A DNA stretch of 64,000 nucleotides from positions 6,201,378 to 6,265,377 of the forward strand of contig NC_087381.1 of NCBI RefSeq assembly GCF_963675165.1, in the 5' to 3' direction. This document shows positions 36,061 to 62,838 of this stretch, one piece after another (positions within the stretch are counted from its first letter, which is position 1; the number at the start of each line of letters is the position of its first letter). This DNA is from Halichondria panicea (lineage: Eukaryota; Porifera; Demospongiae; Suberitida; Halichondriidae). The notes beneath the pieces were generated by a model. It saw only the letters and a program-made list of their open reading frames with translations, did not search any database and was not told where the DNA came from. Both the position numbers and the translations under genes were made by a program.

Positions 36061-36151
36061 CATGGTTGACTAGTGTCTAAACGTATTAATTTGAGTGAAT
36101 AAGGTTTCAGGTAATGATTCATAACTGCTTGAAAATTCAAAACCCCTGCAG

Positions 36152-39115: not shown

Positions 39116-39139
39116 CCCATGTACTATCTATAACTTAGA

Positions 39140-41103: not shown

Positions 41104-41828
41104 ACCGGTACTATAGATTGCTCTGGGCTACAAACTACAACAAGAAGATATACATGTAATAACATAAAAATTATTGTAGCTAGATGCTTTGTCTAGTAAT
41201 AACAGAGCTAGAATGAAACTGAAAGAGAGAAGCTCTAGTTGTTTTTTTTGCTTTGTTTGAGGGTAGTAGGAGACACTTGTTTTTTGGGCAGTGTGCTGTA
41301 ATTTTTTGCTGCAAGGCTGCATGGGGGACATGTGTATGGAAGTGCTGGGATTCTAGCTTTGGCTTCTTCCTAAAGTTCCTTGTTCAAGAGTAGTATAGGA
41401 GCCGCTCGTTTGCTGGGCTTGTTTGCTGCAAATTATAGCTTATATAGGTGTCTTCATTTTGCTTTGTGAGAGTAGTACAAGCCGCTCGTTTCTTGGGAAG
41501 TGTGCTGGGCTTGTTTGCTGGAAAACTGGGGAGGAGCTGGATGTTTCCGTTTTGTGGGTGGAGCTAGGACTATAATTTTAACTAAGGAGGAACAGGGTTG
41601 ACTTGAATAGAGACCACAGATTTAGTAGAGACACAGAGATGCCAACTTCAGATATTAGTTTTCAAAAGAATAATGATGCAGTTACTAGGTTGGCTGTTTA
41701 TATAGGTTGACTGTTGCTAAGCTAGTGCATTTATAGTAGCCAATAGGTTTTGGGATCTAAGTTATAGTTATAGAACATGGGCAAGAGGTATCTATGTGTT
41801 ATAGTGTCTCAAAGCTCGAGGGTTTATA

Positions 41829-41905
41829 GATCCCATTTGAGTGTATTTAGCAGGGAACTATGAGCTATAGTACCGGTACTATAGATTGCTCTGGGCTACA
41901 AACTA
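41829..41905. other. Empty insertion site matching the 40182-41103 element
   Basis: The left flank of the element (GATCCCATTTGAGTGTATTT...GAGCTATAGTACCGGT) and its right flank (ACTATAGATTGCTCTGGGCT...) are contiguous here, with a single ACCGGT at 41872-41877. This is the pre-insertion arrangement in a duplicated neighbouring segment, or a precisely excised copy. Confidence 0.9.
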
Positions 41906-43194
41906 CAACATTGTACATTGTATTGTGATTTACAAGAAGATACACATGTAATAACATAAAAATTATTGTAGCTAGATGCAATATAATAACAGAACTAGAA
42001 TGAAAGAGAGAAGCTCTAGTTTCTTTTTTTTGGCTTTGTTCGAGAGTAGTAGGAGACGCTCGTTTTTTGGGCAGTGTGCTGTGCTTTTTTGCTGCAAGGC
42101 TGCATGGGGGAGGAGCTGGATGTATGGAAGTGCTGGGATTCTAGCTTTGGCTTCTTCCTAAAGTTCCTTTCACTTTTTTCAAGAGTAGTATAGGAGCCGC
42201 TCGTTTGCTGGGCTTGTTTGCTGCAAATTATAGCTTAGGTGTCTTCCTTTCGCTTTGTGAGAGTAGTACGAGCCGCTCGTTTCTTGGGAAGTGTGCTGGG
42301 CTTGTTTGCTGCAAAACTGGGGGAGGAGCTGGTTGTTTCCGTTTTGTGGGTGGAGCTAGCTAGGACTATAATTTTGTCCATCAAACTGAGGTGGAGGAAC
42401 AGGGTACGGGTTGACTTGAATAGAGACCACAGACTTAGTAGAGACACAGAGATGCCAACTTCAGATATTAGTTTTCAAAAGAATAATGATGCAGTTGCTA
42501 GGTTGGCTGTTTATATAGGTTGACTGTTGCTAAGCTAGTGCATTTTTAGTAGCCAATAGGTTTTGGGATCTAAATCAGTTAGAACATGTGCATTCGGTAT
42601 CTATGGTTATAGTGTCCCTCATCCCTCGGGCTAAAGCCCTCGAGCTTTGGGACACTATAACACATAGATACCTCATGCCCATGTTCTAACCATAACATAG
42701 TAAACATGCACTTTAATAAAACTATAATAACGCAGGTTGTGTTTAATCAAACAATTGTGCAATGTGCTATAGGCGATCGTTGTTCATGCTTTCCATCGCA
42801 GCACAGTATTATACAATGTGTGTATAATTATATATGTTCAGTTATATATAAGCTCATGTTGCCCAATATCGATATGACATAATTATTACCCAATCTTAAA
42901 TTGTAATGAATCTCATTAATATCACTTGCGAGTAATTAGAATCACAAGTTGTGGTAATACTGGGGATCTATATCAACACATCTAGGTGTAGCAAGAGTCT
43001 GACAACCTGGAGTAATGATTATGAGCCTAATAGTTTGGCTGACGAGGATAGTGGATAATGTGATATCAAAACTAAATTAACAATAACAAATTAACAGCAG
43101 TTGCCATGCATTATCTGTGTCAACCAAACAGTTGATCGAAGTTGTATATGTAAGGCTATATAGATTTAGTTAGTGAGCCAAGTATATACGGTTC

Positions 43195-43233
43195 AGCCAT
43201 TCCTCGTAAGATTCTGTCGAATTTAGACTAACT
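43195..43233 (+). promoter_or_regulatory. Conserved leader flank (probable 5' UTR/core promoter)
   Basis: CCATTCCTCGTAAGATTCTG followed by TCGAATTTAGACTA lies directly upstream of the ATG. The spare leader at 38125 has CATTCCCAGTAAGATTTTGT then CGAGTTTAGACT, and the leader at 3031 has CATTTCTCGTAAGATTCTGA. Conservation outside the coding part suggests a retained 5' UTR or initiator region, though duplication alone would also explain it. Confidence 0.5.
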
Positions 43234-46200
43234 ATGGCTAGCTCACAAAGTCTGTGTTGCCTGTTCCTATTGTCTGTCCTCCTTCATATATCACTTGGAG
43301 CTAGTGATGACTTCACCATTGATAGCAGTAAATGCAATGGTCTTGTGTCAGCTGTATCTATAGACAATGTTTTGGAGGTGTCAATGGGATTTAGAAGCCC
43401 AAAAGAAATATTTAGGTATACACTATTCAAGTGGCTGAGGGCTTCTAAATCACATGGACAACACCGACAAAACTGTGTCTATAGATGGTAGTGCGCATGC
43501 GCAAATCTTGCCCTCAAGTACACGGAATACTATAGGTATACTAAGTAAATTGTAAGTATACTAAGTCCCACAGTACTATACCTGCTCTGAGGCACTTTTT
43601 CCATGTACTTCCCATGTATAGATCTTATCAACTAGTGTCTATTAAACGTATTAATTAAAGAGTACTTAAATGTACTCCTGATTTTAGTGAATGATTTATA
43701 GCTGCTTCAAAACTCCTGCAGATCCGAATGCTCCAAAATCCAGAGGAAGCAGATTTGCTCTGGCCTTCATGAACAATGCTGCTCAAAGTTCAACTGCAAC
43801 CCTACAGGAAATCGGAATTTTCATCACCACTGAGCAGGAGAGCTCAAGTTTCACCCTAGAGACACGATGGTTGGGAGTGAATGGAATAGGATTCACTGAG
43901 ACCTCTCCTGGATCTGGGTTATGGTCTCGCATGGAAATCGCTCGACGAGGAGAATTCACTTTCATCAGTCTGCCGGCAGGATGGGGTACCCAAGGAGACA
44001 TAGCCGTGCAAAACAATGGAGAAATCGATGAAGCTGAAAGACAAAAGGGATTGTTTATAACAGCAGAGGATCCAAACGATGAGCTCACTGTATATGTGCT
44101 CAATGATGAATCTACAACAACTGATGCGTACATGGCTATTAACTGTGTCGAATTTCCAAATGCTAAAAGTTACAAGTACTTTATCTTTTCATCTGGTGTG
44201 TTTGGTGGAGAGCCATTTCAGAGTCGATTTCTTTTTACTCCTTGTGAAAATGACACTACTGTCAGTGTACAAGCCTCCCAAACCCAAAACCATCCTGGTT
44301 GGGTGAACCCTAGTCCTTCAAACCCAAGTTCTCGAGTCGAATCAACGTATGGGAGGGCTTTCAATCGTTTTGACACTGTGATGACTAGCAATAATGTGGA
44401 TCTTACTGGCTCTATCATCACTTCTAACAAGCCATTGGCTGTATTTTCTGGGCATCAATGTGGAAATCCTACTGCTGTCCGAAGTTGCGACTATCTTGTA
44501 GAACAAGTGCCACCTCATCCAACATACGGTGACCTATTTTTCATGGCTCCCTTCGCTGTCAGACGAAGCGGTGAACTGTACAGAATTGGCTCAGTATCTG
44601 CTGGAGCACAAGTAACAATCAATTGTGAGTGTGCAGCAAGTTCAGCCGATGGGAATAATCGAGTTGCACTGGTTAGCGCTGGAAATGGTATTTACACGGC
44701 CACAGTGGGTGCAGGACAATACGCTGAGTGCCTAACACCTCAGAGTGCTCAGACCTATTGTTGTGTTACGTCCTCTCAACCCGTTACTATGGCTGGATAT
44801 ACACTCGGCCGTGATGCTGAACCAGTTGTTTTAGGTCGCTCTGAAAATTTTGATCCTGCCCTATATTACATACCAGCAGCTAACTCATATTTGAACAGCT
44901 ACAGCTTCACTACAGCCAAGGATTTGACCACTCAGTTCAACGGATATCTTAGCTACATCTTGCCCACTCGTATCTTCGATAATTCCACAGCAGATCAACA
45001 AAGGTTTCTTGTAAATGGAGAAACTGGAATTCCTGATGATCAATATCAAGCCATCAACTGTCGTGTGGATGGTACTGATCAGGTGTGTGCTTATGGAGGT
45101 ACCAGCAGCATAGGCCAAGGAAATTTCAACCTTACTTATGACAACATTCAAAATGGAGCATTCTGGGGATTTGCATACGGATTTTCTTTTAGAGCCTCGT
45201 TTGCTTATCCTTTGCCCTTTGAAATGGAGCCAGTTGGACGTAAGTTTCTCAAAATTCTTTTACATTTCATTTTATTATTCTCTTTGTTTATGCAGTGGCC
45301 TGGATTCGAGCTGTGGATCGAGTTGTAGTGGAATCTAGTGTAACGATAGTCGATCTCATGTTCAGTATCACCCGTGGTGATCGATCAGAGCGTAGTAGAG
45401 CATTTGCTTCCCTTCAATCCCTCACAGCTGAAGAAGGTATTTAGTCCACTATTATGCATTCCAGTCTTAATTGCTTGCAATTTCTATATCCATGCATGCA
45501 GATTCTGATTATACTGCTCCTCAACCACAAAGAAATGGTGGGCTTGATCAAAATGGCAACCTGCGATGGGGAAGAGATGGCGCCACACTCCCCAACGTTG
45601 CATATGAAGTCACTATTTTGGACGATGACATTCCAGAGCCAGTAGAAGTGGTGGAGGTGATGGTGCAGTGTGTTGAAACCGAGAATTGCTACCTGCCCAG
45701 AGCTCGGTACACCATAACCATTATTGATGATCAAGGTGAGCGTACAAATGGTATTATTGAGGCACATGTAATTGCTTGCATGCAGAGCTCCATGTAAAAG
45801 ACAGTATACTTGTTATGTGGAGAGTGGACAATAATTATCTATGATACGCTAGAAACATAAAAACGCATGTATGCAAATGGTACGTATAATTATGCCGTAG
45901 TTGCGGACATCCCTGGATGATACGCTCTAGTTGCTTGGTATCAGTAATCATTCGGTTGAGTTATTATGCCTCGGTGCGCATGCGCAAGCGAGGTATACGG
46001 TAGTGTGTTTGTGTGTCTGTGTGTGTGTGTAGACTGTTTCAGCTGCTCAAGGATCAATGAAGTGTAAGTAAGAGTTTCTATAGGCTTCTAGTCATGTTTT
46101 CTTGGCTTGGTATTTGTGGATTTGCAAAATAAAGCTTCATCTCGCTAGTTTTGCTTACTTGGAATGCCATTGCAGCCTTTTCAGAAGAGTCCGTAGCAAA

Positions 46201-48052
46201 ACTTGTTCACCGAGTGTTGCTACTCTACTTAGTAGTTAGCTCTGCACTAGAACGCTAGCTATTGGTAGCTGCAAGAGTGAGAAGAGAGCTGCAAGGCTCT
46301 GCTGACTTGCAGCCATTAATTTTAGACTTGAACTTTTGGCATCGATCGTTATTAACAACAATCATCTTCGATCATTACCCACTCCTTGAGTTTCCCTGCG
46401 ATTCTGGATTCTGCATTTAAAAATGTTCACATGATAATTATAATCAATGTGTGTATAAAAGCTAGCTATTAGTAGCTTTATGTTATGTAGCTTTGGCATC
46501 TCCACCGAGGCATCAGCACCCACGGTGCTTTCATTTGTATAAGCATTGTATTGCCCACCTTTAGGTGCCTGTTCTCCTGACCTACCTGCTTTCTCTGATG
46601 GCTCCATCTCATACAACTATGAGTTTTTCACAGAGATTGGTGGTCGACCATACGGAACAGTTGCCACGTACGAGTGTCGTACTGGAACTTTAGTAGGAAA
46701 CCGAATAAGGATTTGTGCGAATGGAGTGTGGTTAGGAAGTGTACCAAGCTGCGGGGGTAAGCTAGGTTACCATTCACTGTCAGTATTGTGGCATCCTATA
46801 ATTATAATCAATCTCTCTTGATCCTATTATACATAGTGGTCAGAGTCATGTTTGGGTTTGCAACTCTTTCCTATAGGGATAACTTGATTGGCACTATAAT
46901 TATTATAGCTTCCATTATTATAATAGTTATACTTCAGCGTCCTCGCTATTTATTTATTGCTCTCATACTCGATCTTATATGAATGTGACAAATCTCATAC
47001 AACCAGATACGCATGTAGCTATAAATGGTCTCACAATTGTGACTAGTTCAAGTACACAGCTCTGGGCAATTATATTGGTTAATTTTGAGGCGCTAGTGTT
47101 ATGTACAGTTATTGACTCGTTTTTTGCAAGTTGTTATCCAACTTCGCATCCTTTTACAGCGGTGGATTGTCCAGCACTGGCACCCATTCCAAACGGAGCT
47201 ATTGCATATGATCCTGATACGATTGCTCCTTTTGATGAGGGAACAGTGGCTACTCATACCTGTAATGAAGGTTTCATGCTGGGTGCCGGATCTGAGACTC
47301 GAACGTGTTTAGAAACAGGGAGGTGGTCTGGCTTCACTCCTGTGTGCCGAGGTATGTAGATTCGTTTCGGTTATTTATCGAATTATCTACTATCATGCGC
47401 TACAACTTCATTTGATGTCATGTCAAAAGTTAGAATTGCAACTTCGCATGCACTAGTTATGATCTGCATGTGCATGCCTTCATTTTTATGCGTCTGTGAG
47501 TATGAACATACATGTTGTACGTGGCATGTATGTTGTATGCAATCAAACTTACTGTTAATTTGTCACGTGCCTATATCCGATCGGTGTTCATGCATACAAT
47601 ATGTGCATGTGTTATCAGCTCGTGTTGCCCAATATTTTGTGTACGACTATTCTACATAATTATTCTCCTTTACAGCGCAATGTCCAGCACTAGAAAACAT
47701 TCTAAACGGAGGTTCTATTTTATATTTTCCTGACTTTACTCCTGATTTTAATGACGGAACATTGGCTACATATACCTGTGATCCTGGTTTCCGTCTAGTC
47801 GAAATTGCAACTCGATTGTGCCAAATCTCAATGACATGGACTGGCCAGCCTCCTGTGTGTGAACGTAAGATTCAATGATAGTTTATATAGCTCTGGAAAA
47901 CAAATCATTAGCACGGTAGTGCTAGTAGTAGGGTTGGGTTGTACCATTATAGTGCAGAATTATTTTATCACCTGATAATTGCAAAGTATGCTTTGAATCA
48001 CTGTTCATCTTGTAAGTTCCGTTCCGGTGCATATCTCACTGTGTATTTTACG

Positions 48053-48093
<41 letters not shown>

Positions 48094-51000
48094 CTCTGTG
48101 TCCTATATTGCCGCCCGTAGACAATGGAAGGGTTCAATACTCTCCTGACTTCATACCTGATTTTAACGTGGGTACTGAGGCCACGTACACTTGCAACTTT
48201 GGGTTCCGTCTGATTGGACAGATGGTTTTAGAGTGTGAAGGAAATGGACTGTGGTCAAATTTTCCTCCAATGTGTAAAGGTGAGGAATGAGCCTATAATT
48301 ATGAGCCTCTTATGAAAAAGGACATGGACATGGAAATGAGACCGAGTATTATCAATGTTGTATTATACATATGACTTGAGGCTATACGCGTGCATTGATT
48401 GTGTAGCTGCTAATAACTCTAGATTAGTGAACGCTCAACAGCATGTACATATCTCAAGGTTGCCCTAACGGGACTTACAATTCTCTTTGTTGAAAAGAGT
48501 CTGTTCGTCTTTGTTCCTATGTATCTGTGCATGCGTGTTTTGGTGTGTCAGTGTGTAGCTCTGTACCATGCACATTTGCTTATAATTATGGAAAGCAAAC
48601 GGCAGCGCTGTATTGTGTATAACACTTGTAGGTATTCAACCACTTTGTGTATAACTCCTCTCCATATAATTATGGCGATACGGTCATAGCCATGCACTTA
48701 CGAAACGTGATCCCCGTAGTTAGACGCTCCTTCTCCATCTTATGCATGGGCTCCAGCTACCTTCAACTGCTGTGTATAAGACCTCCCTGCCAATAACTTG
48801 ATCATGTAATCTAGAACACGATGGAGACTGTATGACTTTTATCACATGCTTGTAACCTTGATAACATGACACCAGGCCCGTACCCCATGGGGGGGAGGGG
48901 TTCCATCGAGCCACCTCTTAGTTAGATTTAAACACATGCACTCCTATATATACACTTCAACAATCCTTTTGTACCAAAGTTAAGACCTTATTATGTTATA
49001 GAGATCTGCTAATAAATTATGCATGGTTGGTCAGCTTAAGTTTAATTATATATTTGTTTCTTATTTTACCGGCCCCGACACTTACATCTCTTATACAGCT
49101 CAATGTCCAGAAAACTGACACCTATTCCAAACGGAGCTATCACATATGGTCCGGATATGACTGCTGACTTTGATGTGGGAACAAATGCTACTCATACCTG
49201 TAATGAAGGTTTCATTCTGTTGATCGGACCTGAGATTCGAACGTGTCAAGACACAGGGAGATGGTCTGGCTTCATTCCTGTGTGCCGACGTACGTAAGAT
49301 TTGCTTTGTTAGGCTCTGAGAAAGTAAACTATTCAGTAATAAATTATCGTACTTACGTACCTACCTGTGCTAAGCGTGTGAGATGTTAGTATCTCTCCCT
49401 GCATGTGCATGCTTCGAATTTTTATGCGTCTGTGAGTGTGAACATGCACACACAGGTTATGTGTAATCAAACCAATTGTTTGCTATATGCTAGCCAATCA
49501 ACTCAATCGTTAATTGTTTATGCAGCTATATTCTTGACACTGAACAATGTGTGTGTGTTATCATCTCGTGACAGTTTCTTGTGCATATCCTTTACAGCGG
49601 TGGAATGTCCAGCACTGGCACCCATTCCAAACGGAGCTATTACATATGGTCCTGATATGACTGCCGATTTTTTGATGAGGGAACAGTGGCTACTCATACC
49701 TGTAATGATGGTTTCATTCTGGGTATCGGATCTGAGACTCGAACGTGTTTAGAAACAGGGAGGTGGTCTGGCTTCACTCCTGTGTGCCGAGGTATGTAAT
49801 TCATTAGGGTAAATTATTATTGTGAATTTGTCGGAAGTTATGAATTTGATAATGCACGCCTTTAGTTGCGTGTGCCAAGTACACTATATATTTTGGCATG
49901 TGCGTGTTTATGCATCTGTGAGTGTGAACATGCACGCACCTGCAGTGTGTAATCAAACCAACTGTTTGCGATATGCTAGCAGATCGTTGTTCATACATAC
50001 AATGTCTTTTGTGTACAATTATTCCACTAACACAATTATTCTCCTTTATAGCGCAATGTCCAGTACTGGAACCCATTCAAAACGGAGCTATTACATATTT
50101 TCCTGATTTTATTCCTGATTTTAATGACGGAACAGTTGCTACATATAGATGTAATCCTGGTTTCTTTCTGGTCGGAATTGCAACTCGAACGTGCTCAATC
50201 TCAAGTACTTGGGCTGGCCAGCCTCCTGTGTGCCAACGTAAGATTCGTTTGTGATATAATTATAGACTCTAGGGACACAAAATCAAAATTGCATGCACTT
50301 AGCTGTGTCAAGAGTATTATATTTTGTCACTGCATGCTTTGCATTTTATGCGTCTGTGAACATGCACACGCAAGTTGTGTGTAATCAAACCAATTGTTTG
50401 CGATGTGCCAGCCAATAGACTTGTTTTCTATATTCTTGACACTGAACAATGTGTGTGTGTGTTATCATCTCGTGACAGTCTTTTGTGTATACTACCTTTA
50501 CAGCGGTGGAATGTCCAGCACTGCCATCCATTCCAAACGGAGCTATTACATATGGTCCTGATACAATTGCTCCTTTTAATGTGGGAACAGCGGCTACTCA
50601 TAGCTGTAATGATGGTTTCATTCTGGGTGCTGGATCTGAGATTCGAACGTGTTTAAACTCAGGAATATGGTCTGGCCTGACCCCTGTGTGCCGAGGTACG
50701 TTGATGTCATGCTGAAAGTTAATCTATTTAGCTGTGTGTGCCAAGTGCACAAGATATGTTGTGATATGTATGTGCATGTTTTGCATCTGAACATGCACGC
50801 ACCTGCAGTGTGTAATCAAACCAACTGTTTGCGATATGCTAGCAGATCGTTGTTCATACATACAATGTCTTTTGTGTACAATTATTCCACTAACACAATT
50901 ATTCTCCTTTATAGCGCAATGTCCAGTACTGGAACCCATTCAAAACGGAGCTATTACATATTTTCCTGATTTTATTCCTGATTTTAATGACGGAACAGTT

Positions 51001-51558
51001 GCTACATATAGATGTAATCCTGGTTTCTTTCTGGTCGGAATTCCAACTCGAACGTGCTCAATCTCAAGTACTTGGGCTGGCCAGCCTCCTGTGTGCCAAC
51101 GTAAGATTCTTTTGTGATATAATTATAGACTCTAGGGACACAAAATCAAAATTGCATGCACTTAGCTGTGTCAAGAGTATTATATTTTGTCACTGCATGC
51201 TTTGCATTTTATGCGTTTGTGAACATGCACACGCAAGTTGTGTGTAATCAAACCAATTGTTTGCGATGTGCCAGCCAATAGACTTGTTTTCTATATTCTT
51301 GACACTGAACAATGTGTGTGTGTGTTATCATCTCGTGACAGTCTTTTGTGTATACTACCTTTACAGCGGTGGAATGTCCAGCACTGCCATCCATTCCAAA
51401 CGGAGCTATTACATATGGTCCTGATACAATTGCTCCTTTTAATGTGGGAACAGCGGCTACTCATAGCTGTAATGATGGTTTCATTCTGGGTGCTGGATCT
51501 GAGATTCGAACGTGTTTAAACTCAGGAATATGGTCTGGCCTGACCCCTGTGTGCCGAG
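43234..51558 (+). CDS. Receptor B ectodomain: signal peptide, IgGFc-binding domain, Calx-beta, ten CCP exons
   Basis: Exons: 43234-43327, 43722-45239, 45296-45436, 45502-45735, then CCP exons 46565-46756, 47160-47351, 47676-47864, 48094-48279, 49099-49289, 49598-49791, 50052-50237, 50504-50695, 50915-51100 and 51367-51558. The leader is a signal peptide. Exon 2 is an intact 1518-nt IgGFc-binding-type exon (LTGSIITSNKPLAVFSG). Exons 3-4 are Calx-beta (YEVTILDDDIPEPVEVVEV). CCP modules have the usual four Cys and a Trp (CPALAPIPNGAI ... GRWSGFTPVC). CCP5 and CCP6 each carry a 2-bp insertion that breaks the frame, but skipping either exon keeps the frame. The last CCP exon ends in phase 1 and matches the phase of the exon at 52392, so this is most likely the N-terminal half of the adhesion GPCR at 52392-62838. 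Taken together and corrected for the frame breaks, the two halves total about 1982 residues. Confidence 0.8.
45966..46290. repeat. Dispersed repeat copy starting TATGCCTCGGTGCGCATGCG
   Basis: The end TATGCCTCGGTGCGCATGCG...GGTATACGGTAGTGTG plus a GT tract leads into blocks shared with 28330-28665, 39765-40000 and 6290-6640. The same terminal motif with a longer GT tract is at 60432-60511. It lies in the intron between the Calx-beta and first CCP exons of receptor B. Confidence 0.65.
48051..48092. repeat. (CA)n microsatellite forming a splice acceptor
   Basis: An uninterrupted CA repeat of about 20 units runs directly into the CAG acceptor of CCP4 (exon from 48094). Length changes in it could alter the use of this acceptor. 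Confidence 0.9.
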
Positions 51559-51720
51559 GTACGTTGATGTCATGCTAAAAGTTAATCTATTTAGCTGTGT
51601 GTGCCAAGTGCACAAGATATGTTGTGATATGTATGTGCATGTTTTGCATCTGAACATGCACGCACCTGCAGTGTGTAATCAAACCAACTGTTTGCGATAT
51701 GCTAGCAGATCGTTGTTCAT
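49927..51720 (+). repeat. 863-bp tandem duplication, each unit with two CCP exons
   Basis: The unit beginning AACATGCACGCACCTGCAG at 49927 repeats at 50790 with almost no differences, and the start of a third copy appears at about 51653 and breaks off near 51720. Each full unit holds one short CCP exon (186 nt) and one longer one (192 nt) with their introns, so CCP7+8 and CCP9+10 are copies. Near-identity including introns means the duplication is recent or an assembly artefact. Confidence 0.92.
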
Positions 51721-52391
51721 GAACGTTTATTACGTGTAAGGCTGTGCTAAGTGCACATGAGATGATACATTTTGAGTTTATCTTTGCCTGCTCATCGGCA
51801 TAAACCACCGAGGGCTAGTTACTTCTTGCCACATGCAGTACAATGTGTGTATGTTATCAGCTCATCTTCTACAATCCTTTGTTTAAACAATTCTTCTCCT
51901 TTATACAAGTATATATACATGCATATAAGCTGCAATTTTTAAATCCTCACAACTTTCTCAGAGCCTATACGAGGCACACAGGAATCAGACCTTGCCATAT
52001 CCCTATAGCTGTGTCTAACTATAGTTGCATGAACTAACGATAATTATAGTCAACGTAAGATTCATGTATTCACTAATTAAATTCCAATGACTGCTACTAA
52101 TAAGTACAATGCATGGCATAAAAAGGTAAAAGATCAATGGAGAATATAATTTAAAGGCCTATAATTATTATAATTATTGTCAAGATTAGTATGCTTATGC
52201 ATTATAAATTAAGGCACACATCAAGTTATGTCATGAATAACGTCTGCATGATTGTGAATATTTATATGTGCCGTGCAGTTGTTAAATTAATGTCCTCCCC
52301 TCCCCCATCAAAAATGGATGTAACGTATGAGCTCCATAACTATTCTCTCTCTATATAATATAGCTTGTATACAATGCACACACGTTTACAG
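51559..52391. other. Intron or spacer between the last CCP and the hormone-receptor exon
   Basis: Contains the truncated third 863-bp unit to about 51720 and AT-rich sequence after it. No CCP exon is present. In the joined-gene model this is an 833-bp intron. Confidence 0.6.
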
Positions 52392-55300
52392 CTGGTTGTG
52401 AAGCAGAGATATACCAGAATCATTCTTGGCCCAACACGGCACTTTGGTCTACTGCACTGTCCCCTTGTCCATGTGTTGAAGTATTGGGTGTGTTCGCAGG
52501 GAATGTCAGCAGACAGTGCTCTGGGTCAATCAGTGAGGGAGGTATGTGGAAGGATGAGCTTGACCTCAGCAGCTGTGAGACTACACTTTCAGATATATCC
52601 CGGGAATTGTGTGAGATTACAAGCGTAAGTGGTTTGAGGAAGTTGAAATATATCTGTTAGACAACTGCTGCTGCAGCATGACTACTTCTATACAGCCAAC
52701 GTTTTCTAAAAAATTATATTTTAGTTACTTTTGTATGGTGTAAATTTTCATGTATTTCATATTAAAGAGAATCATACGAAAATTAAGTTATTCTACCGCA
52801 ATGGATTCAACATCACTATCCTGAGCTGTACGAATATTAAAAATACGAATGGATAGTCATAAAACCAACGTTGATATACGGTATACTGTATAGCGGGTAT
52901 ATTTTGAGGGTATAAACTTTCGCGGAATGACCTTAAGAAAGGTTTTTACGGAATAACAGCCTTTCTGCAATGCATGCATGCATGCATGCATGCATGCACA
53001 TGCGATAGTAAATTCGTGGGTATAAATGTCCGCGGTTAATTCTTGATCAGCGAAAACCACGAAAATGTTTATACCCTCGAAATATAATTATTATATCCGC
53101 TATATGGCAGTTAGAGCTAGCTGAATTCCTCATTAGCATTCGCAAAGCTTGATAATGGTGTTGGATATTCACAAAACATTGTAGTAATACAATAATATTT
53201 TTTGTCTGCAAAAGAACACATTACAGTTTAGTATTTGAGGTATAAGATAAGATGCCATGGTCAGACACCGAAAGCACCACAACCACTGAAACCTTGTAAC
53301 GTGTGGGAATAGGTTACTGTATAAATTGTGTACTTTAGTAGAGCATCAACTTTGAACTGAGCTACACATGTACAGCACAAAGATGGGCTCCAATGTGAAG
53401 ATTATCGGTATCTCAGTGGCAGCATTTGTGCTACTGACAATCACACTATACGGAAGTCTATCCTTTGCTGTGTGGAATCTACATACCCAAAGTGCGAGTC
53501 TAAAGTCTGATAATCAAAGTCTAAAAGAGAACCAAATCATTGAATTACAAAATCTAAAGACTGAAATGCAAAGTCTAAAATCTGCAAATGAGAACCTACA
53601 TAACAAAATCTCTGAATTGCGAGGTTTTGTTCAAGCTATAAATCCAAACCCTCACTCGAGTGATGAAGCCACGGTGATGGACACACTAAAGCGACTAACT
53701 CGACAATCCGGCTCCTCTCAAAGTGCTACTGATCTACTTGCTGATGCTCTGGCAGAACTAATTGAAAAGAAACTCTACACTATAATGGACTGTGCTAGAG
53801 ATGACGCTGATAATTTAACCGACTGTTCGCTCAAGCCAGGCCCAAAGGGGGACAAGGGATGCCTGGGTGATCAAGGTAAAGAAGGCCCTCAGGGAATGAA
53901 CGGAGAACCTGGGGTCAAAGGACACATCGGTTACCCTGGTCATAAAGGGGAGGTGGGTCCAAAGGGTCCTAGCGGCAATCCCGGTCCAACGGGGCACCGA
54001 GGGGTTAAAGGAGATATGGGCGAGATCGGTCAACGAGGTGAGGCGGGGGTTAAAGGTGACGAAGGTATGAAAGGAGAATATGGTTTCCCTGGACACAAAG
54101 GCGAGAGTGGCGGGCCAGGTGCCAAGGGGATTAAAGGAGATCGAGGCTTTGGAGGCAATAATGGACAAAAGGGAGAGAAAGGAATAACGGGGGAACAAGG
54201 TCCACCAGGACCTATTCCCACCACACAACCACCAACTACTAGAGCGGTGACTACACAACCACCAACTGTTCCCTCTGAGAGGTGTAGTGGTCCTGGATGG
54301 AGGAAGGTGGCATCTCTTGATATGACTAATACTAGCCAAAACTGCCCTCAAGGACTAACACTGACTGGCTACTCAAAACGATCATGTGGTCGAACACATA
54401 CAAATTATTATGCTTGTTCATCAGTCACCTTTCCTGTTAGTGGGGGTCAATACAGTCGAGTGTGTGGGAGAGCAAAGGCTTATCACTATGGGTACCTGTA
54501 TTCCTTTCTTGGGTATAACCGTGACTCACGTGGTATCAATGCACAGTACGTTGATGGACTAAGCTTCACTCATGGAACACCCAGGACACACATTTGGACA
54601 TTTGCAGCTGGTTATTATCAAGGAATCAGTGGTGATACTAGCAATAATTGTCCTTGTAACACTGGTAACACCGACGGCTCCCCTCCTTTTGTTGGTAATG
54701 ACTATTTCTGTGAGAGTGGCGTAAGCTCTTTTTCTGCACGTGGAGGTAACATATTTTACCCTGATGATCCACTCTGGGATGGTCAGGGGTGTATCCATGG
54801 CAACCCATGCTGTCAATTGAACACCCCACCGTGGTTCAACCAAACACTACCAACCCCCACAACTGATGATATTGAAATGAGACTATGCTTGCTTCAAACA
54901 GATCCTTGGGGTAACATTGCTCTTGAACAAATGGAACTATACGTCTACTGATGAACTAGAAACACTGAACATTGATCTGACTCTGTGAATTATCCTAGAT
55001 GTAAATATTGTAACAGATATTAGTTTTGTGAGCAAAAAACCTTGAGGGTATAAAGATCGTGGTGTCATACAAGTACCAGTAGTATTGGCAATCTTACTTT
55101 TGCGAACCATTAACATTAATTTGCTAATTTTATTTGATGTTGTAATATTTACGGTAATAATTGTTCACCTGTAGTAACAGAGGTTATCTGATGCTTGACC
55201 CCGGTAGCGCTGTCCATCACCCACACCTCCCCCCGACACACACACACCCGAGGAGCTGAGGGGTCAAAGGGCAAAGCTTGTAGTCCAGTTCCCCGGGAAA

Positions 55301-58300
55301 GGAACTCAGCCACACCCACTTCCTGTACAGGGGAAGGGGTTAGAACAGTATTACCATAATCACAGTTAACCAATAACGAGCTTTCAAAGGTAGCTACCAG
55401 AATGGCTGAATTGTATGATCACACTTGCACAGGGAGCACCTACAATGCAGAATACCAATATATCATTATGTATGTATGTACCGTATAGCAGGTATATTTT
55501 GAGGGTATAAAAAAATGCCTTTAGAAAGGTTTTCGCGGATTTAATTTTCGTGGAATAGCGTATTTTTACAGCATGCATGCATAGTCGCGGTACATGCCTA
55601 ATCCGTGAAAATCACGAACCTTTATACCCTCGAAATATACCCGCTATACAGTATACAGTACTCATACGTAACGACACTGTATACAACCCTTTTTACCTCA
55701 CTTGAAATGCTTACATTATTAGAGAAAACATAAGTCAACCTAGCTACAGTGCACACAGTGGGATCACACTATAGGCTCTGTACACTAGCTACAGTGCACA
55801 CAGTGGGACCACACTATAGGCTCTGTACACTAGCTACAGTGTGCACAGTGGGATCACACTATAGGCTCTGTACACTAGCTACAGTGCGCACAGTGGGACC
55901 ATGCACACTATAGGCTCTGTACACTAGCTACAGTGCGCACAGTGGGACCACACTATAGGCTCTGTACACTAGCTACAGTGTACACAGTGGGACCACACTA
56001 TAGGCTCTGTGCACTAGCTACAGTGCACACAGTGGGACCACACTATATAGGCTCTGTAAACTAGCTACAGTGCACACAGTGGGACCACACTATAGGCTCT
56101 GTACACTAGCTACAGTGCACACAGTGGGACCACACTATAGGCTCTGTACACTAGCTACAGTGCACAGTGGGACCACACTATAGGCTCTGTACCTAGCTAC
56201 AGTGCACACGGTGGGACCACACTATAGGCTCTGTACACTAGCTACAGTGTACACGGTGGGACCACACTATAGGCTCTGTACACTAGCTACAGTGCACAGT
56301 GGGACCACACTATAGGCTCTGTACACTAGCTACAGTGCACACAGTGGGACCACACTATATAGGCTCTGTACACTAGTCTACATAATAGTTAGACACTGTT
56401 TAGGAAGTTTCTACATGATTTAGAAGCCCAAAGGGCTGGTTGTAGTATCCCGAACGCAGTGAGGGTTCTACTAGCCCTGAGGACTTCTAAATCATGTGGA
56501 AACTTCCTAAACAGTGTCTAAGCATTTTAGATCATAGCAACCATGAGTATTTAGCCAATCAGATTTGAATGTTCTTATCTAATCTTTGCTACATGATTTT
56601 CTAAGTGAAGTACATGATTTTCTATTGAAGTACATGATTTTCTAAATTGGATAGAACATTTCCTCTAACCAATCAGATTGCAGTATTTATGACAAACATG
56701 ATCTAAACACCGCAAGTCAATATTAAAATAGCATCTCTGCTTCTTTCTTGCCTTTCAAGTGAGGTGAAAGGTTGCAGCCATGCAGCACCATAGTACACTG
56801 TACTATAAGGAGACTCACTGATTGCCTGTTCAGGACCAGACACTGAGGTCCATGCACTAGGAGGAGATCACATGATGACAAGTAGTCATACTGTGTGAGG
56901 CCACTACCCGTGGACCGCATCCGTTCCCGTAGCAACTGCTCGGACCTGAGAACAATTCGATTCAGTATTCAAAATGTACAACTATACCAGCACAGCATAG
57001 AAGATCAAATGCTATAATGTCATGTGATACGTTACAGTGCATAGTTATACAGGACTAAGATATGTCTGGTAGACCTAATTCCACATCTTATAATGTAGCT
57101 AGATAGACAATTAATAGATCTGTACTGTAAGCACTAGCCATTAAGCAGGCACGGAGGAATATATTGTAATGCAATATACATCAGACATAGCCTCATCCCG
57201 GGCTGATTTTTTTTTTAAGTTGAAAAATACTAGCTAGAGACAACAAGGCTGGGAACGAGGCTACCTCAGTTAGTGCTATATCAATACAACTACAAATAAA
57301 TTGTCTTTTCATTGATGTCTTTATATAAAGGGTATACCAAATAGGCTGACTTTTTGAAAAGAATAATACACTATGGCAGGCACATTGATAAAATCAGTGA
57401 AAGTAGTTATTTTCGGTAAACCAAGTATATACTACAATATGCTGAATGTCATCACCTTCTTTCGTCTTTGGCTGCCACCAGTAGCCAGTGTAGCAATCAA
57501 ATTCCTCTTATATGATAAAGGAGGGTGCTCCAGCTGACCTCTGGCCGGGCCCCAGGCTTGTCTGCAAAAATAGAAAATAAGTTGTGACATAAATTATTAC
57601 TATAATTATAGCGGGTTATTTTCGGGGGGGGGGGAATCAGTTTGTGGATCTTATTTTCATGGTTGCTACTTGCACTGCAGGTAAAAGTAGTCTAAGGTCG
57701 CTTCATTCATGGTCCAGTATTCAACCACACAAATGATAAGACATCAAATGCACCACAACATAACTTAGAAACCCCAGAGATAAGATATTAAATAAGAGGT
57801 CACCATATAAATTGACTTCAGTATAGAGTATCAACTTTGAACTGATTTACGCATGTACAACAAATAATGGATTCAAATGTGAAGATTATCGGTATCTCAG
57901 TGGCAGCCTTTGTGCTACTGACAATCACACTATACGGAGGTCTATCCTTTGCTGTGTGGAATCTGCATAGCCAAAGCGTGAGTTTAAAGGATGAAAATCT
58001 GAACCAAAACTCTGAATTGCGAAGTTTAAAAGAGAACCAAATCACTGAATTGCGATGTCTAAAATCTGAGAATGCAAACCTACAGAACCAAATCACTAAG
58101 CTGCAAGATATTGTCGGAGCTAATCCAAACCCTCACTCGAGTGATGAAACCACGGTGATGGACACACTAAAGCGACTAACTCGACAATCTGGCTCCTCTC
58201 AAAGTGCTACTGATCTACTTGCTGATGCTCTGGCAGAACTAATTGAAAAGAAACTCTACACTATAATGGACTGTGCTAGAGATGACGCTGATAATTTAAT

Positions 58301-60471
58301 CGACTGTTCGCTCAAGCCAGGCCCAAAGGGGGACAAGGGATGCCTGGGTGATCAAGGTAAAAAAAGGCCCTCAAGGAATGAACGGAGAGCCTGGGGTCAT
58401 AGGACTCAGTTTTTTGCTGTATTGAAATGAATCTCTCTGCCTTCCTATAGGGACTCTCATCAAATATGACAACTCAAGTGTCCAATCAGATTGCCAACAT
58501 CACATCCAAACCTCAAAATCTGACTGCAAGTCAACTCACCTTGGTTACTGCAATAGTAGAGCAAGTAGCAGTAGAAGCTGCTGTCAACCAAGAGGTGAAC
58601 ATTGTTACTTACCAATGAGTTATGACTCTATCACATGTCCAGGTGAGGGACAACTATCTTCAAACAATCAACAATATTCAGCAAGCCGATGTTGACGTCA
58701 TCTATGAGAGCCAGCTAGCAATGAATTCATCAACAAGGTATGTTGCAAGTATAATTATTGTCACTGTGGGTTGTTTCTTCATGTAAGCCTCACAAAAGGC
58801 CAGTGCTAACTCCCGCTACGTATTTTGTGATAGGCCTTTTCTTATCCAATTTGTTTGCTGTTTTCCTTTTCCCTGCATGTATGTGTTTAGTTGAAACCCA
58901 TGATCTTTGCCAAAGTTGATGTTTACCCTCCCGGTATAGGATTCTTGCAAGCCTCGAAACATTTCTGGACAATCTCAATACTTCAACTGTTTCCAGAAAC
59001 TCCACAAGCATGCAATCAGACTGTTTTAAGTTTTGAAACATTTGCTATGACAGTGCAAGATTTAGACCCTGACAGTTTCCAGGGCCAGACATTTGTTGTT
59101 GATTTAGGCCCTGTCGAAGAGGCAGTGAACAATACTGGCGTTATTGACCAAGATGCTCTGATGACGGCTAATGATTACACAGCTGATAACAGATCAGATA
59201 TTGATTCCCTTAGTGAAGACACCGAAAACTCAACAGCCTCTCTACGCTTAAGCCCTTTGATTCTTAAAGAATGCCCTACAACAAACCGTTCACTTCGGCA
59301 AAGATTAAGTTACTCTGTTTTTTTGTCTGATGTGCTTTTCCTTCCTGAGAACAGAAGTACTAATCAGGTGTGATCTATTGTGGTGGCTGCAAGACTAGCT
59401 TGTCTGCAGACCAACAAGACAGTGCTCTCAGTACCAGTACGGACAAGCTTTCTGATCAGGATGACGGTATGAGCAATTTAAAAATATGTAAGTAAGTTCT
59501 TTGTGATTTGTCTGCAGAATAATATTGAAAACAGTAGCTGTGCTCTGTATAAGACTCAAGGTAAGTGCCCGGACTTTGCAGCTTTAACAAGCTCACTATA
59601 CCTTTCATTTTTTCTATCTTTACTATTTCAGATCAGTTTGGAGCTTGGGACACTGCTGGATGTAAAGAGATAACCAGTTCCAATGGGAGAAAAGATTGCG
59701 AATGCAGACAATTGGGCCACTTTGGAATACTCTTTGTAAGAAATATATACACTACAACATTTTGATCTCCTCACGATTACAGGATTTGAATCCAACGTCA
59801 TTACCTGAAAATCTTGCAATTGCTTTGAGCACCATCACATACATTGGCCTGAGCTTGTCTGTAGTGTGTCTTCTGGTGTTTATATTCACCATTTTTATCA
59901 GCAAGTAAGTAGCAACCTGCCCAGTTTGTTCGGCGTTTCTATTCTCTTTCGTAGGAAACTCCTCGCTGATAAACAAAACCAGATTCTCATCAACATGAGT
60001 ATTTCACTGATGTTTCTGTACTTCACCTTCCTCATTGGAGGGTTCACTGTTGGTGTCCCACCTCTCTGTGGGCTCATGTCTGCCCTCCTGCAGTACTTCT
60101 TCCTAGTGTTTTTTTCCTGGATGGCTGTAGAAGCTGTCTGGCTCTACCTCAAACTGGTAGTGATAATGGGATCTCAGTCCCTCACCTCCAAGTTCATGCT
60201 GAAGGCTGGAATTCCAGCTTGGTGTAAGCAATCGTTAATAATGCTTATCTTGAGAGATTGCTTGTGTACTCAGAGTTGATATAGTACATTCAGTTTTGTT
60301 GCTATAATTATGTTTTTGAGGGTGCTTTTATATTATACTCCACATGCAGTACTGCCCTTTATGATTGTTGTCATCAGTGCTGGGGTGGGCTACCAATACT
60401 ACAGCAACCTATACTAGTAAGTACCTACAGTTATGCCTCGGTGCGCATGCGCAATTAAGCGGGGTATACGG

Positions 60472-60514
<43 letters not shown>

Positions 60515-62838
60515 GAAGGGGGTGTAGTAAGTACAAGGCTAACTGGGTTAGATGAAACTGCACCCGCTGAAACGTACCATTTTGACTCAAACGGAATGCA
60601 TATTAATTAATTTTTATGAAGGACATTCAATAGACAGTTTATATTTTTCCGGTATTCAGAGGAGCACCAAACCCGTCATTGCCAGTCTACAAGTTTTGGT
60701 ATCATTAATCTCCTGACTTGTGAATAGCTCAAGGAAAGGCGGGACCACTCCCATACATGCAAAGTCCGAGTGTCACTGTCAAACCATAGACTCAATGGTT
60801 AAACACCACAAAACATGCTGTTGAAAAGCAAGCTAAAAAAAATTTGATTTTGTATTTTGTTTAGGAAGTACAACTATATTAATTTAGACAGGCAAAATGT
60901 AACCTTTTAGTGATTCAAATAGAATAGATCTAGATTTAGCAGTGGCGTAGCCAGAGGGGTGCAGAGGGTGCTCCAGCACCCCCCCTCTGGCCTTAGACTC
61001 TGCTCCATAAGTTCATTTTACTAACTAGCTAGCTAGCTGATATGAGATACCGTATTCACCCAAATTACCGGGACACAAAAAAATAATTACGGCTTGCAGT
61101 GTCTCTTGGAATAGAGCAAGAAAAATTACGTTAAAGTCGAAGTGTCCCTTGTATTAGGGTGTCCCGTATAGTAATTAGAACGAATATTTCCCCATGGTAT
61201 ATGTACACGGCCTCGATTCCAGGCGGAGGCTAGCTCTGCAGCTAAAATGTATTTCGTGCAGTTTAGAAGCTGTGTAGTTCTTTTACCTATAGTTCCCTTA
61301 GAAACCTACTGCTCCTGACCAATATAGGAGAGCCCAATTCTACTTGCTGCATCACTACTGCTGACTTTTTCCCTTAGGCGCCAGTTCCCTTGCCTACCCC
61401 CCTCTTGCTGATTGTGTCTAGGAGCTTTCCACTAAGCAACGCGCAGCCCCTCCCCTTCTGGTCACGCTCCCGCATTGTGCATGCTCTTTTTCATTCTAAT
61501 TAGATCAGGACGTCTACATTTCCGTCCGAAGTGTCCCTTAGAATGGAGTGTCCCGGTAATTCGGGTGAATACGGTAAATATAGAGCTCTCTTGCACGATC
61601 AACTCAAAACTCCACCTCCAACTAGCTAGCTCCACCTCCAAATATTCATTCCAGGCATTCCAGTCAGTGCACATGTGCAAAGCAACGTGGCTGAGCAGAC
61701 CGAGCAGACCACCACACCGAGGTCCCCCACAGAGTTGCATACTGTTCAGCAGCTATCACCATCATCATCATATGTCACTCTTTCAGTTGAGCCCAGTTCA
61801 CAGAGCAGCACTGCAACTGCAAGTGGCTTGTCACCCTGTCCTGCTAATTCACAAGCAGAACCTGGTTAGCAGCTGCATGATTTAATTGTCACAACTCAAA
61901 ACAATGCATTTTATAGGATATCTTCAAATGAAGATGTGGCTTAACCACCAGCACCCTCAAAGCAGCAGTACCCTCATTTCTTTAGCTAGATTGCGTTAGA
62001 ATCAATCTCAGAACATGTAACAACAAACATTTTCTGGGGGAGTGTCCCCAGACCCCCCCCCCCATTGGAGCCACATTTTGCACTGCCAGTGCGCTCTGCG
62101 CACGTAATTCGGACAATCCATTCATCCAGCACCCCCTCTCTCAAATCCTGGCTATACGCCCCTGTTTAGGGTGATCTTTATATTAGTCCGCAAAATACTG
62201 AATGCGGATGCAGGTGCATGCAAAGTTCTGTGTAGTTAATATACCAATGTACATTTTTATGAATAGGGCATGTAATATATATACGGTATTTAGTACCAAC
62301 ATCGATCACATACACACATCATTATTCATTCAGCTGTCATCCTACTGAATGGCCTTTCTATTATGGATTCATTCTTCCTTTTGTCATCATCTACGTATTC
62401 AACTGGTCCGTATTTGTTGCCATCATGGTGTCCATTTGCAAGCATTATAGAAACCTGCAGTCACTAAACGAGAGCTCCGTACTTCAACAGTTGAGGAATG
62501 TTAAGAAGAACTTGGTCATTGCAATGTGTCTATCAGTTGTACTTGGCCTGGGTTGGGGCCTTGGACTAGTATCAACAAGCTCTGGTCTTGTGGAGCTGTC
62601 ATTCACATTCCAAGTGATATTCTCGATCTTTGTGGGTTCTCAAGGTGTGCTAATTTTTATTATATATGGTCTTCGAAGCACTAACTTCCGCCAGACATGG
62701 ATAAAACTCTTTAGTGGCTGTAGATCAAACACTGATAACTTTGTGTCTTCTGAGAAAGGAAATACTAATCCACGAGATAATTCTAGCACTGTCAGAGTGG
62801 AGTTATCGAGCATGAACACATTACCAAGCAAACAGTAA
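52392..62838 (+). CDS. Adhesion GPCR: hormone-receptor-like domain, GAIN, GPS, seven transmembrane helices
   Basis: Exons: 52392-52624, 58451-58594, 58643-58737, 58940-59367, 59410-59466, 59518-59560, 59632-59735, 59783-59904, 59955-60223, 60350-60416 and 62334-62838. The first encodes a HormR-like module (NVSRQCSGS...GMWKDELDLSSC). The next four give the GAIN domain (TSKPQNLTASQLTLVTAIVE). The GPS spans two exons, with SSCALYKTQ, WDTAGC and CECRQLGHFGIL. TM1 is in ITYIGLSLSVVCLLVF, TM2-3 in exon 59955 with the class-typical FFSWMAVEAVWLYLKLV, TM4 in 60350, and TM5-7 in the last exon (GLGWGLGLV, FVGSQGVLIFIIYGL). Phases match throughout, including back to the CCP exons of receptor B. One extra T in the TTTT at 59031-59034 breaks the GAIN frame; without it the total is a multiple of three. 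The first intron is 5.8 kb and hosts other genes. Confidence 0.9.
52885..53108. mobile_element. Inverted-repeat element (GTATAGCGGGTATATTTTGAG family)
   Basis: The left end GTATAGCGGGTATATTTTGA...GGGTATAAAC and the right end GTTTATACCCTCGAAATATA...CCGCTATA are inverted. The interior has a run of TGCATGCA near 52969-52998. It belongs with 55481-55651 and is related to 16699-16899. Confidence 0.75.
53320..53325 (+). promoter_or_regulatory. TATA-like box of the collagen-like gene
   Basis: TATAAA lies 63 bp upstream of the ATG at 53383. In the duplicated copy TATAAA is at 57806-57811, 61 bp upstream of its ATG, and the sequence between is also conserved (AGAG(C/T)ATCAACTTTGAACT). Spacing and conservation fit a core promoter. 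Confidence 0.55.
53383..54951 (+). CDS. Type II transmembrane collagen-like protein with Cys-rich C-terminal domain, single exon
   Basis: This is an intronless frame of 522 codons. I prefer the second ATG at 53383, because the duplicated copy starts at the matching position (MDSNVKIIG). A hydrophobic segment (IIGISVAAFVLLTITLYG) near residues 7-27 has no cleavage-type leader features, so the protein is probably anchored N-in. A heptad-like Leu-rich stalk follows (LKSDNQSLKENQ, LKSANENLHNKI), then about 42 Gly-X-Y triplets at 53838-54218 (GPKGDKGCLGDQGKEGPQG onward), a Pro/Thr linker, and a C-terminal domain of about 220 residues with many Cys and Trp (HIWTFAAGYY, DPLWDGQGC, CCQLN, IEMRLC). 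I have seen this C-terminal layout in cnidarian and sponge proteins but know no function. It could be a surface adhesion or pattern-binding molecule. The gene lies wholly inside the first intron of the adhesion GPCR on the same strand. Confidence 0.88.
   Translation: MGSNVKIIGISVAAFVLLTITLYGSLSFAVWNLHTQSASLKSDNQSLKENQIIELQNLKTEMQSLKSANENLHNKISELRGFVQAINPNPHSSDEATVMDTLKRLTRQSGSSQSATDLLADALAELIEKKLYTIMDCARDDADNLTDCSLKPGPKGDKGCLGDQGKEGPQGMNGEPGVKGHIGYPGHKGEVGPKGPSGNPGPTGHRGVKGDMGEIGQRGEAGVKGDEGMKGEYGFPGHKGESGGPGAKGIKGDRGFGGNNGQKGEKGITGEQGPPGPIPTTQPPTTRAVTTQPPTVPSERCSGPGWRKVASLDMTNTSQNCPQGLTLTGYSKRSCGRTHTNYYACSSVTFPVSGGQYSRVCGRAKAYHYGYLYSFLGYNRDSRGINAQYVDGLSFTHGTPRTHIWTFAAGYYQGISGDTSNNCPCNTGNTDGSPPFVGNDYFCESGVSSFSARGGNIFYPDDPLWDGQGCIHGNPCCQLNTPPWFNQTLPTPTTDDIEMRLCLLQTDPWGNIALEQMELYVY
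55169..57561 (-). CDS. Partial minus-strand gene, unidentified (three exons recognised)
   Basis: Three minus-strand exons with good GT-AG borders: 57561-57456 (AWGPARGQLEHPPLSYKRNL...), 56945-56819 (SEQLLRERMRSTGSGLTQYD...) and 55322-55169 (EVGVAEFLSRGTGLQALPFD...RVCVCRGEVWVMDSATG). The last has a beta-propeller feel (VCVCRGEVWVMDSATGVK), but I cannot name the family. Introns are 510 and 1496 bp; the second contains the 45-bp minisatellite. The gene runs opposite to the adhesion GPCR and lies within its first intron. Further exons in either direction were not identified, so the order and completeness are provisional. Confidence 0.5.
55481..55651. mobile_element. TA-flanked short inverted-repeat element
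   Basis: The ends CCGTATAGCAGGTATATTTT and CGAAATATACCCGCTATAC are inverted copies with TA on both sides. At 171 bp it is the tightest copy of the family seen also at 52885-53108. Confidence 0.82.
55743..56376 (+). repeat. 45-bp minisatellite, about 14 units
   Basis: The unit CTAGCTACAGTGCACACAGT + GGGACCACACTATAGGCTCT + GTACA repeats about 14 times, with few substitutions (ACAC/GCAC/ACGG variants) and small indels. It lies in an intron of the minus-strand gene and within the first intron of the adhesion GPCR. The repeat contains the palindrome-like GTGCAC and CTAGCTA words but no evident coding frame. Confidence 0.95.
56392..56705. repeat. Inverted copy of the 39140-39469 foldback repeat
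   Basis: GACACTGTTTAGGAAGTTTC at 56392 and its complement ending at 56518 form the hairpin, followed by ACATGATTTTCTAAGTGAAG-type repeats. It sits directly after the minisatellite. Confidence 0.85.
57188..57263. mobile_element. Short derivative of the MULE-like TAGCCTCG element
   Basis: TAGCCTCATCCCGGGCTGAT and GGCTGGGAACGAGGCTA form inverted ends around a T-run and TTGAAAAATAC, matching the terminal parts of 34560-35357 but only 76 bp long. A clear target duplication is not visible. Confidence 0.6.
57867..58430 (+). pseudogene. Truncated second copy of the collagen-like gene
   Basis: From about 57800 to 58406 this matches 53316-53925: conserved TATAAA, start MDSNVKIIG, transmembrane segment, a variant stalk, the ATDLLADALAELIEKKL region and the first collagen triplets. 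A 1-bp insertion in an A-run near 58357-58363 breaks the frame (GGTAAAAAAAGG against GGTAAAGAAGG), and homology ends after GGGGTCATAGGACT. The remaining ~127 collagen residues and the whole C-terminal domain are absent. The broken end lies about 45 bp before GPCR exon 58451. It is a recent, partial duplication and probably non-functional. Confidence 0.88.
60473..60511. repeat. (GT)n microsatellite
   Basis: A GT run of about 19 units follows TATGCCTCGGTGCGCATGCG...GGTATACGGTA, the same terminal motif as the dispersed repeat at 45966. It lies in the intron between TM4 and TM5-7. Confidence 0.9.
60940..62164. mobile_element. CAGTGGCGTAGCCAG-type element with 5-bp direct repeat, in a GPCR intron
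   Basis: The left end CAGTGGCGTAGCCAG and the right end CTGGCTATACGCCCCTG are inverted, and TTTAG flanks both sides (60935-60939 and 62165-62169). C-rich blocks CCAGCACCCCCCCTCTGG and CCAGCACCCCCTCTCTC lie inside the ends. The 1225-bp element contains the nested element 61050-61574 and a Ser/Thr-rich open stretch (about 61670-61865, SPSSSYVTLSVEPSSQSST) that could be a captured exon. It inflates the TM4-TM5 intron. Confidence 0.75.
61050..61574. mobile_element. TA-flanked inverted-repeat element nested in 60940-62164
   Basis: The ends CCGTATTCACCCAAATTACC and GGTAATTCGGGTGAATACGG are near-perfect inverted repeats with TA on both sides (61048-61049 and 61575-61576). It is 525 bp, has no transposase and is of Tc1/mariner-like type by its ends and target. 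Confidence 0.88.

Follow-up and report, generated by a model that had tools for sequence, protein, structure and literature searches.

Whether an IgGFc-binding domain and an adhesion GPCR can belong to one and the same gene is the question raised by the second of two receptor loci in the window analyzed here, a stretch of 64,000 nucleotides from Halichondria panicea (C5:6201378-6265377). The first-pass annotation had proposed that this second receptor (positions 43234-62838 of the window, plus strand) is a single gene running from an IgGFc-binding domain through CCP (sushi) modules to HRM, GAIN and 7TM parts. As a description of a gene family the proposal held up in the gene models of the relatives B, C, L007 and L009, but as a description of a working receptor in the window it found no support, given three frame-broken exons and a nonsense codon. 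By its sequence, the locus is probably a degraded member of a family of adhesion GPCRs with an IgGFc-binding (FCGBP-type) N terminus, the apparently intact relatives of which read in a single frame by their gene models.

Twenty-four exons, all on the plus strand, were modeled for the second receptor from splice sites, with phases read as in the paralogues; the genome searched comprised 131 Mb in 39 contigs. Exon 1 (43234-43327, phase 0 to 1) encodes a signal peptide (MASSQSLCCLFLLSVLLHISLGA...), has homologous first exons in other members and ends at the donor shared by the family. The open IgGFc-binding-type exon follows (43722-45239, phase 1-1), and the domain announced for it was confirmed by PF17517 (E=2.9e-34 for the frame 43691-45325). 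Seven other C5 members share 71-96% identity with this exon, compared with 27-31% for L007, L009 and L010. A PDB sequence search with this exon rendered six matches (E 0.063-0.28), mostly T-cell-receptor chains, which were taken as chance. Two phase 1-1 exons come next, the x2 exon (45296-45436), which has no assigned domain, and an exon that by eye is Calx-beta-like (45502-45735, ending in ITIIDDQG). The Calx-beta domain claimed for the window copy had to be abandoned as a Pfam-supported domain, since neither exon gave a Calx-beta match, singly or joined: x2 showed no match, the other exon a sub-cut-off one to ClpS (0.13), and the joined pair nothing.

The ten CCP/Sushi exons that had been counted were all recovered, between 46565 and 51558, two by Pfam (PF00084, E=1.8e-4 for CCP1 and 2.1e-9 for CCP2) and eight by tblastn to each other. 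CCP1 (46565-46756) is common to the paralogues, while nine further CCP exons, two of them frame-broken, stand in the place of the paralogues' Calx-beta array. CCP2 to CCP4 (47160-47351, 47676-47864 and 48094-48279) and CCP7 to CCP10 (50052-50237, 50504-50695, 50915-51100 and 51367-51558) are open, CCP9-10 being a close repeat of CCP7-8. The HRM exon (52392-52624, phase 1 to 0) matched PF02793 weakly, below cut-off (E=6.6e-4; 20.5 bits versus a cut-off of 26.2). Of the GAIN exons, G1 (58451-58594) and G2 (58643-58737) were 94% and 97% identical, respectively, to those of paralogue B, with GPR128_GAIN_subdomA reached at E=0.028 only, and G3 (58940-59466, 527 nt) is broken. The GAIN/GPS exons (59518-59560 and 59632-59735) carry the motif CECRQLGHFGIL, and the 7TM exons (59783-59904, 59955-60223, 60350-60416 and 62334-62838; 7tm_2 E=1.2e-10 and 1.4e-5) are open. 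Judged by Pfam scores and by the paralogues, the domain calls in the window are above chance; an Rfam scan of 43000-63500 gave no match.

The phase junctions on which the one-gene proposal had been built proved correct. Thus, the last CCP exon ends in phase 1 at 51558 and HRM starts in phase 1 at 52392, HRM ends in phase 0 at 52624 and G1 starts in phase 0 at 58451, in both cases as in the paralogues, and the stop codon at 62836-62838 lies in their phase. The accompanying statement that all later exons fit was accurate for 21 of the 24 modeled exons, which are open in the paralogue phase, but not for CCP5, CCP6 and G3. CCP5 (49099-49289, 191 nt, with a stop at 49116) was found frame-broken by phase reading against the paralogues, and CCP6 (49598-49791, 194 nt) by phase reading, with tblastn. 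For its part, G3 has gained 4 nt near 59008 and is further interrupted by an in-frame TGA (59371-59373). The three apparent insertions mentioned in the first-pass annotation were probably CCP5, CCP6 and G3; the in-frame stop in G3 was additional and unreported there.

As assembled, the window copy has a frame of 921 codons, which closes at 49116. Since all open CCP exons have phase 1-1, dropping CCP5 and CCP6 preserves the frame as far as GAIN, within which it then ends, at 59034. Thus, through the modeled exons the window copy is unable to encode the 7TM part, and its reading as an intact gene was rejected, with CCP5, CCP6 and G3 frame-broken and a TGA in G3. The G3 exon exists in 11 near full-length copies on C5, that of the window included, plus a fragment on C1; it is open in all 10 of the other aligned C5 copies, and both window lesions are absent from them. 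The HRM-G1 intron measures 5.8 kb in the window copy versus 0.09 to 0.34 kb in A, B and C, and it holds a single-exon collagen gene, separate from the receptor (53398-54951, plus strand; PF01391 E=6.8e-19), the best other matches of which form clusters at about 213-581 kb of the same contig. A truncated second collagen copy lies in the same intron (about 57882-58408, plus strand). The history of this copy would comprise the arrival of a collagen gene within an intron and the loss of frame in three exons, and its product would be at most an IgGFc-CCP protein, truncated and secreted. Where a gene copy is broken, matching phases from exon to exon are insufficient evidence.

Whether such exons form one receptor was examined in paralogues of the same genome. 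When the genome was searched at the DNA level with the HRM exon, 11 matches were obtained, that of the window included, all of them on C5. For five of the 11 (the window copy, A, B, C and D6015), an IgGFc exon lies on the same strand no more than 21 kb upstream, and for the other six none does; the distance from IgGFc to HRM was 6 to 8 kb in A, B and C and 20 kb in D6015. The order in A, B and C starts with IgGFc, Calx-like and CCP exons and continues with a Calx-beta array and with CCP, HRM, GAIN and 7TM exons, so that Calx-beta and CCP exons occupy the space from CCP1 to HRM. Paralogue B reads through 31 exons (2,492 amino acids) in a single frame that starts in the IgGFc exon and reaches the stop of the 7TM part with no internal stop, in a model that uses one placeholder base for the end of exon 1. 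All 31 B exons were found in A, with no frameshift and no stop. The dN/dS values between A and B were 0.32 for IgGFc, 0.43 for the Calx array, 0.54 for GAIN and 0.32 for TM; those of Calx0 (1.25), CCP1 (0.87) and HRM (0.91), with few changes each, gave no clear indication of purifying selection.

Paralogue C is open from ATG to stop, with 24 exons, 1,973 amino acids and a largest intron of 1,328 bp. Frameshift flags in its comparison with B were attributed to blastn gaps, the C exons themselves being open. In the C protein, Pfam detected IgGFc_binding (3.6e-35), Calx-beta (7e-32, four stretches), Sushi (2e-10), GPS (PF01825, 1.4e-6) and 7tm_2 (1e-25); HRM (1.5e-4) remained below cut-off, as did GPR128_GAIN_subdomA (0.014), and PF16489 was not reached for GAIN. 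The protein scanned kept two odd small exons, and the frame was still open when the test was repeated without them. Exon 1 up to the shared donor measures 109 nt in C, 94 nt in both window receptors and D6015, and 99 nt in A and B. The exon 1 of A and B ends in phase 0, not 1, and only a weaker donor, noted by eye, would preserve the frame; accordingly, C alone is open from the ATG among the modeled C5 copies.

The coding potential of the interval between CCP1 and HRM was scored in B and C. The values, 373 for B and 154 for C, compared with at most 70 and 35, respectively, in 20 shuffles, the codon table having been derived from the exons of B itself. When the table was trained without A, B and C, the scores were 267 for B (at most 58 in shuffles) and 116 for C (at most 38). 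The reverse-complemented interval scored 113 in B and 36 in C, or 97 and 40 with the table free of A, B and C, values that are above the best shuffle in B and equal to or over it in C. For B and C alike, all 20 of 20 shuffled sequences also gave the exon finder an open, albeit poor, path. Since every shuffle yields an open path, such a path was rejected as stand-alone proof, and it is the score that constitutes the evidence.

A similar order of domains was found outside C5. In L007 (C4) and L009 (C1), IgGFc is followed by HRM, GAIN, GPS and 7TM within 4.7 to 6.6 kb, via a short linker. The signal-peptide exon of L009, picked by eye, is in phase with the IgGFc exon on the other side of a 68-bp intron, the stalk is a short EGF-like piece, and HRM lies about 0.4 kb after the IgGFc exon. 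Pfam values for L009 were 1.3e-4 for HRM (below cut-off), 5.3e-16 for GAIN (PF16489), 7e-7 for GPS and 1.2e-55 for 7tm_2. Those for L007, whose model is without a signal peptide, were 3.6e-4 for HRM (below cut-off), 8.6e-17 for GAIN (PF16489), 1.3e-10 for GPS and 1.3e-38 for a partial 7tm_2 match (profile positions 73-246 of 250). L010 (C3) has IgGFc, six exons that by eye resemble fibronectin type III, and HRM-, GAIN-, GPS- and 7TM-like exons. Since the gene models of B and C, together with L007 and L009, join IgGFc to 7TM, the fusion is, by these models, real at the level of the family: an IgGFc-type head and an adhesion-GPCR tail are joined in apparently intact relatives of the same genome. 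The likeness to FCGBP lies in the IgGFc_binding domain PF17517, present in the window copy and in the C, L009 and L007 models. FCGBP carries vWD, C8 and TIL repeats, whereas C, L009 and L007 are without them (Pfam, E up to 0.1) and end in 7TM.

The locus might also consist of two genes or remnants, namely, an IgGFc-CCP1-4 gene of the I6384 type (43234-48279) and a CCP-HRM-GAIN-7TM remnant of the D6015 type (49099-62838) that lost its own signal-peptide exon, the fusion then being a feature of the family and not of this locus. We consider this possible but rather unlikely. The 5' half does resemble I6384 (92 to 95% over two pieces of window 43296-48589), in which no HRM match was found within the 10 kb examined, while window 51740-52844, at 85%, and exon G3, at 97%, point to D6015. 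In D6015, which is the reverse complement of L017, L018 and L019, the region from IgGFc to HRM contains two additional signal-peptide exons (at 7718 and at 16932), homologous to window 43001-43336. For this reason the GPCR of D6015 may start without IgGFc, and fused and separate arrangements may both occur in the family. D6015 also contains repeated blocks of CCP exons (5476-8887 and 14655-18076 are 95% identical), and the window linker (51559-52391) differs from it by indels not in threes. However, the separate GPCR start that the first-pass annotation had named as evidence against its proposal was not encountered: tblastn with six signal-peptide exons, a set that recovers those of A, B and C and all three of D6015, gave none of the family at window 43327-52392, the best value being E=0.078. 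A single-query tblastn over the same interval likewise gave no signal-peptide exon, although this search is insensitive, having missed C's own exon, and in the linker (833 bp) no signal peptide was evident by eye in the three ATG frames of at least 25 codons. Moreover, the phases of the window copy stay compatible, and A, B and C have one signal-peptide exon each, upstream of IgGFc, by the same six queries. Among the loci compared, we infer a fusion with a 5' half nearest I6384 and a 3' half nearest D6015. Since D6015 is the nearest to the window also in the IgGFc exon among the GPCR-bearing copies (86% versus 70 to 76% for A, B and C), a shared older arrangement of the window copy and D6015 is a possible alternative to the fusion.

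Two further explanations are far less probable. A single working receptor in the window, its broken exons being assembly errors or skipped, is compatible with the 21 exons open in the expected phase and with the frame kept to GAIN on skipping CCP5 and CCP6, and the lesions could be assembly errors. Nevertheless, the stop at 59034 in GAIN remains after that skipping, the two G3 lesions are separate and absent from all 10 other copies, and a collagen gene sits within the HRM-G1 intron, all of which make this explanation very improbable. Less credible still, to the point of being nearly negligible, is that IgGFc and GPCR genes are only neighbors in tandem arrays and never one gene. This was addressed with a survey of 123 of 124 IgGFc matches (one overlapping C1 match was omitted), merged to 114 places, and the best 150 of 164 7tm_2 matches, from 150 scored of 227 candidates. 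A same-strand 7tm_2 match lay within 12 kb downstream of at least 20 of the 114 IgGFc places and, as tandem arrays would give, also within 12 kb upstream of at least 12; the internal signal-peptide exons of D6015 also fit mere adjacency. On the other side, opposite-strand 7tm_2 within 12 kb, among the matches listed, was found downstream of none of the 114 places and upstream of one. The in-phase signal peptide of L009, with HRM so close beyond the IgGFc exon, the uninterrupted frame of C and the interval scores of B and C above those of shuffles likewise speak against it. The reading that we prefer is that of a degraded member of a family in which both parts form one gene.

By the gene models, the gene of the apparently intact relatives encodes in one frame, and in this order, a signal peptide, IgGFc, a variable stalk, HRM, GAIN/GPS and 7TM, the stalk consisting of a Calx-beta array plus CCP on C5 and of the EGF-like piece in L009. 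The IgGFc domain and stalk would bind an extracellular ligand, and GAIN would relay this binding to the 7TM bundle and a G protein. At the GPS, the motif CECRQLGHFGIL contains Gln-Leu-Gly (QLG) in 9 of the 11 C5 copies, with no match in the stretch examined of the other 2. The usual cleavage site, as given in PMC13197933, is His-Leu/Ile-Ser/Thr. Thus, with QLG in its place, absence of self-cleavage is predicted for the C5 branch, in contrast to L007, whose triplet HLT fits the consensus; that of L009 (HFT) is off consensus. Uncut at the GPS, the C5 branch would signal without shedding its head.

In the portion of the open literature covered by our search, no adhesion GPCR with an IgGFc domain was named, and the combination may be new. 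However, the Figure 1 legend of a work on pattern-recognition receptors of Halichondria panicea (PMC8242945) lists GPS, HormR, 7TM, GAIN, IgGFc-binding, Calx-beta and Sushi. Since IgGFc-binding is there among the domains of sponge immune receptors, GPCRs included, the combination may already be drawn in it, although the passages of text available place IgGFc-binding and 7TM on no single protein and assign the domains to no receptor class. The Amphimedon adhesion GPCRs (Krishnan et al. 2014, PMC4302439), as far as that text was accessible, have 7tm_2, with GPS in 28 of 40 and HRM in at least 8. Like the present family, this set comprises 7tm_2 receptors with HRM, and recognition domains, SRCR among them, occur in some; Figure 4 of that work shows a selection, and its legend names DUF, EGF, fn3, GPS, HRM, Ig types, SNARE and SRCR. 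Unlike in the present family, sushi, calx-beta and igg are absent as terms from its main text. Similarly, in the accessible text on choanoflagellate and animal adhesion GPCRs (eLife 2025, PMC12716839), the HRM-GAIN-7TM module is present, as in the family described here, and Calx-beta and HRM are listed for the Adhesion family, whereas IgGFc and sushi do not occur as terms in the main text. If confirmed by cDNA, the present models would place an IgGFc-binding-type domain among the heads known for adhesion GPCRs, a single genome having more than one such architecture, including a branch predicted not to self-cleave. C and L009 would then offer specific loci for asking whether adhesion GPCRs sense mucus-like, microbial or self ligands in this animal.

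In the first window receptor (3031-11282, plus strand), the IgGFc exon shares 90% identity with its counterpart in the second. The ectodomain block IgGFc-Calx-CCP is the same, but it is followed by an Ig-like exon and an apparent single membrane pass with a tail, while A, B, C and the second window receptor end in HRM-GAIN-7TM instead. I6446 has the Ig and membrane exons in common with the first window receptor, and the tail of I6626 is a related one (56%). In the first receptor, the exon finder had to resort to an odd small exon ahead of IgGFc and to irregular CCP exons, so this receptor may be damaged too, and both window receptor loci thus appear to be damaged. The mixing of modules is itself directly visible in these loci, the alternatives being a CCP array or a Calx-beta array as the stalk and HRM-GAIN-7TM or Ig-single-pass TM-tail as the end. 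As to its purpose, we tentatively suggest, with some way to go before it could be called likely, that the C5 array might act as a receptor swap-shop, in which a signal peptide-IgGFc-x2-Calx-CCP1 block is set on alternative stalks and signaling ends, with fast birth and death as in immune or self-recognition receptors.

Other features were observed in the window. An orphan signal-peptide-like exon (38125-38223, plus strand) is 76% identical to the family exon 1 over 33 residues. The region 23451-31639 (plus strand) contains an ankyrin-repeat frame (Ank 4.2e-19) and a 793-amino-acid frame that matches Roc GTPase (9e-7) and ankyrin. On the minus strand, the region 12169-16018 contains a Myb DNA-binding frame (15755-16018, 1.3e-13) and, near it, a 908-amino-acid open frame (12169-14895) with no Pfam match at E up to 0.01. 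Finally, several frames in 35598-42363 share similar peptide stretches (such as CSKKAQHTAQKTS), which were also found upstream of the IgGFc exon in A and look like a dispersed repeat.
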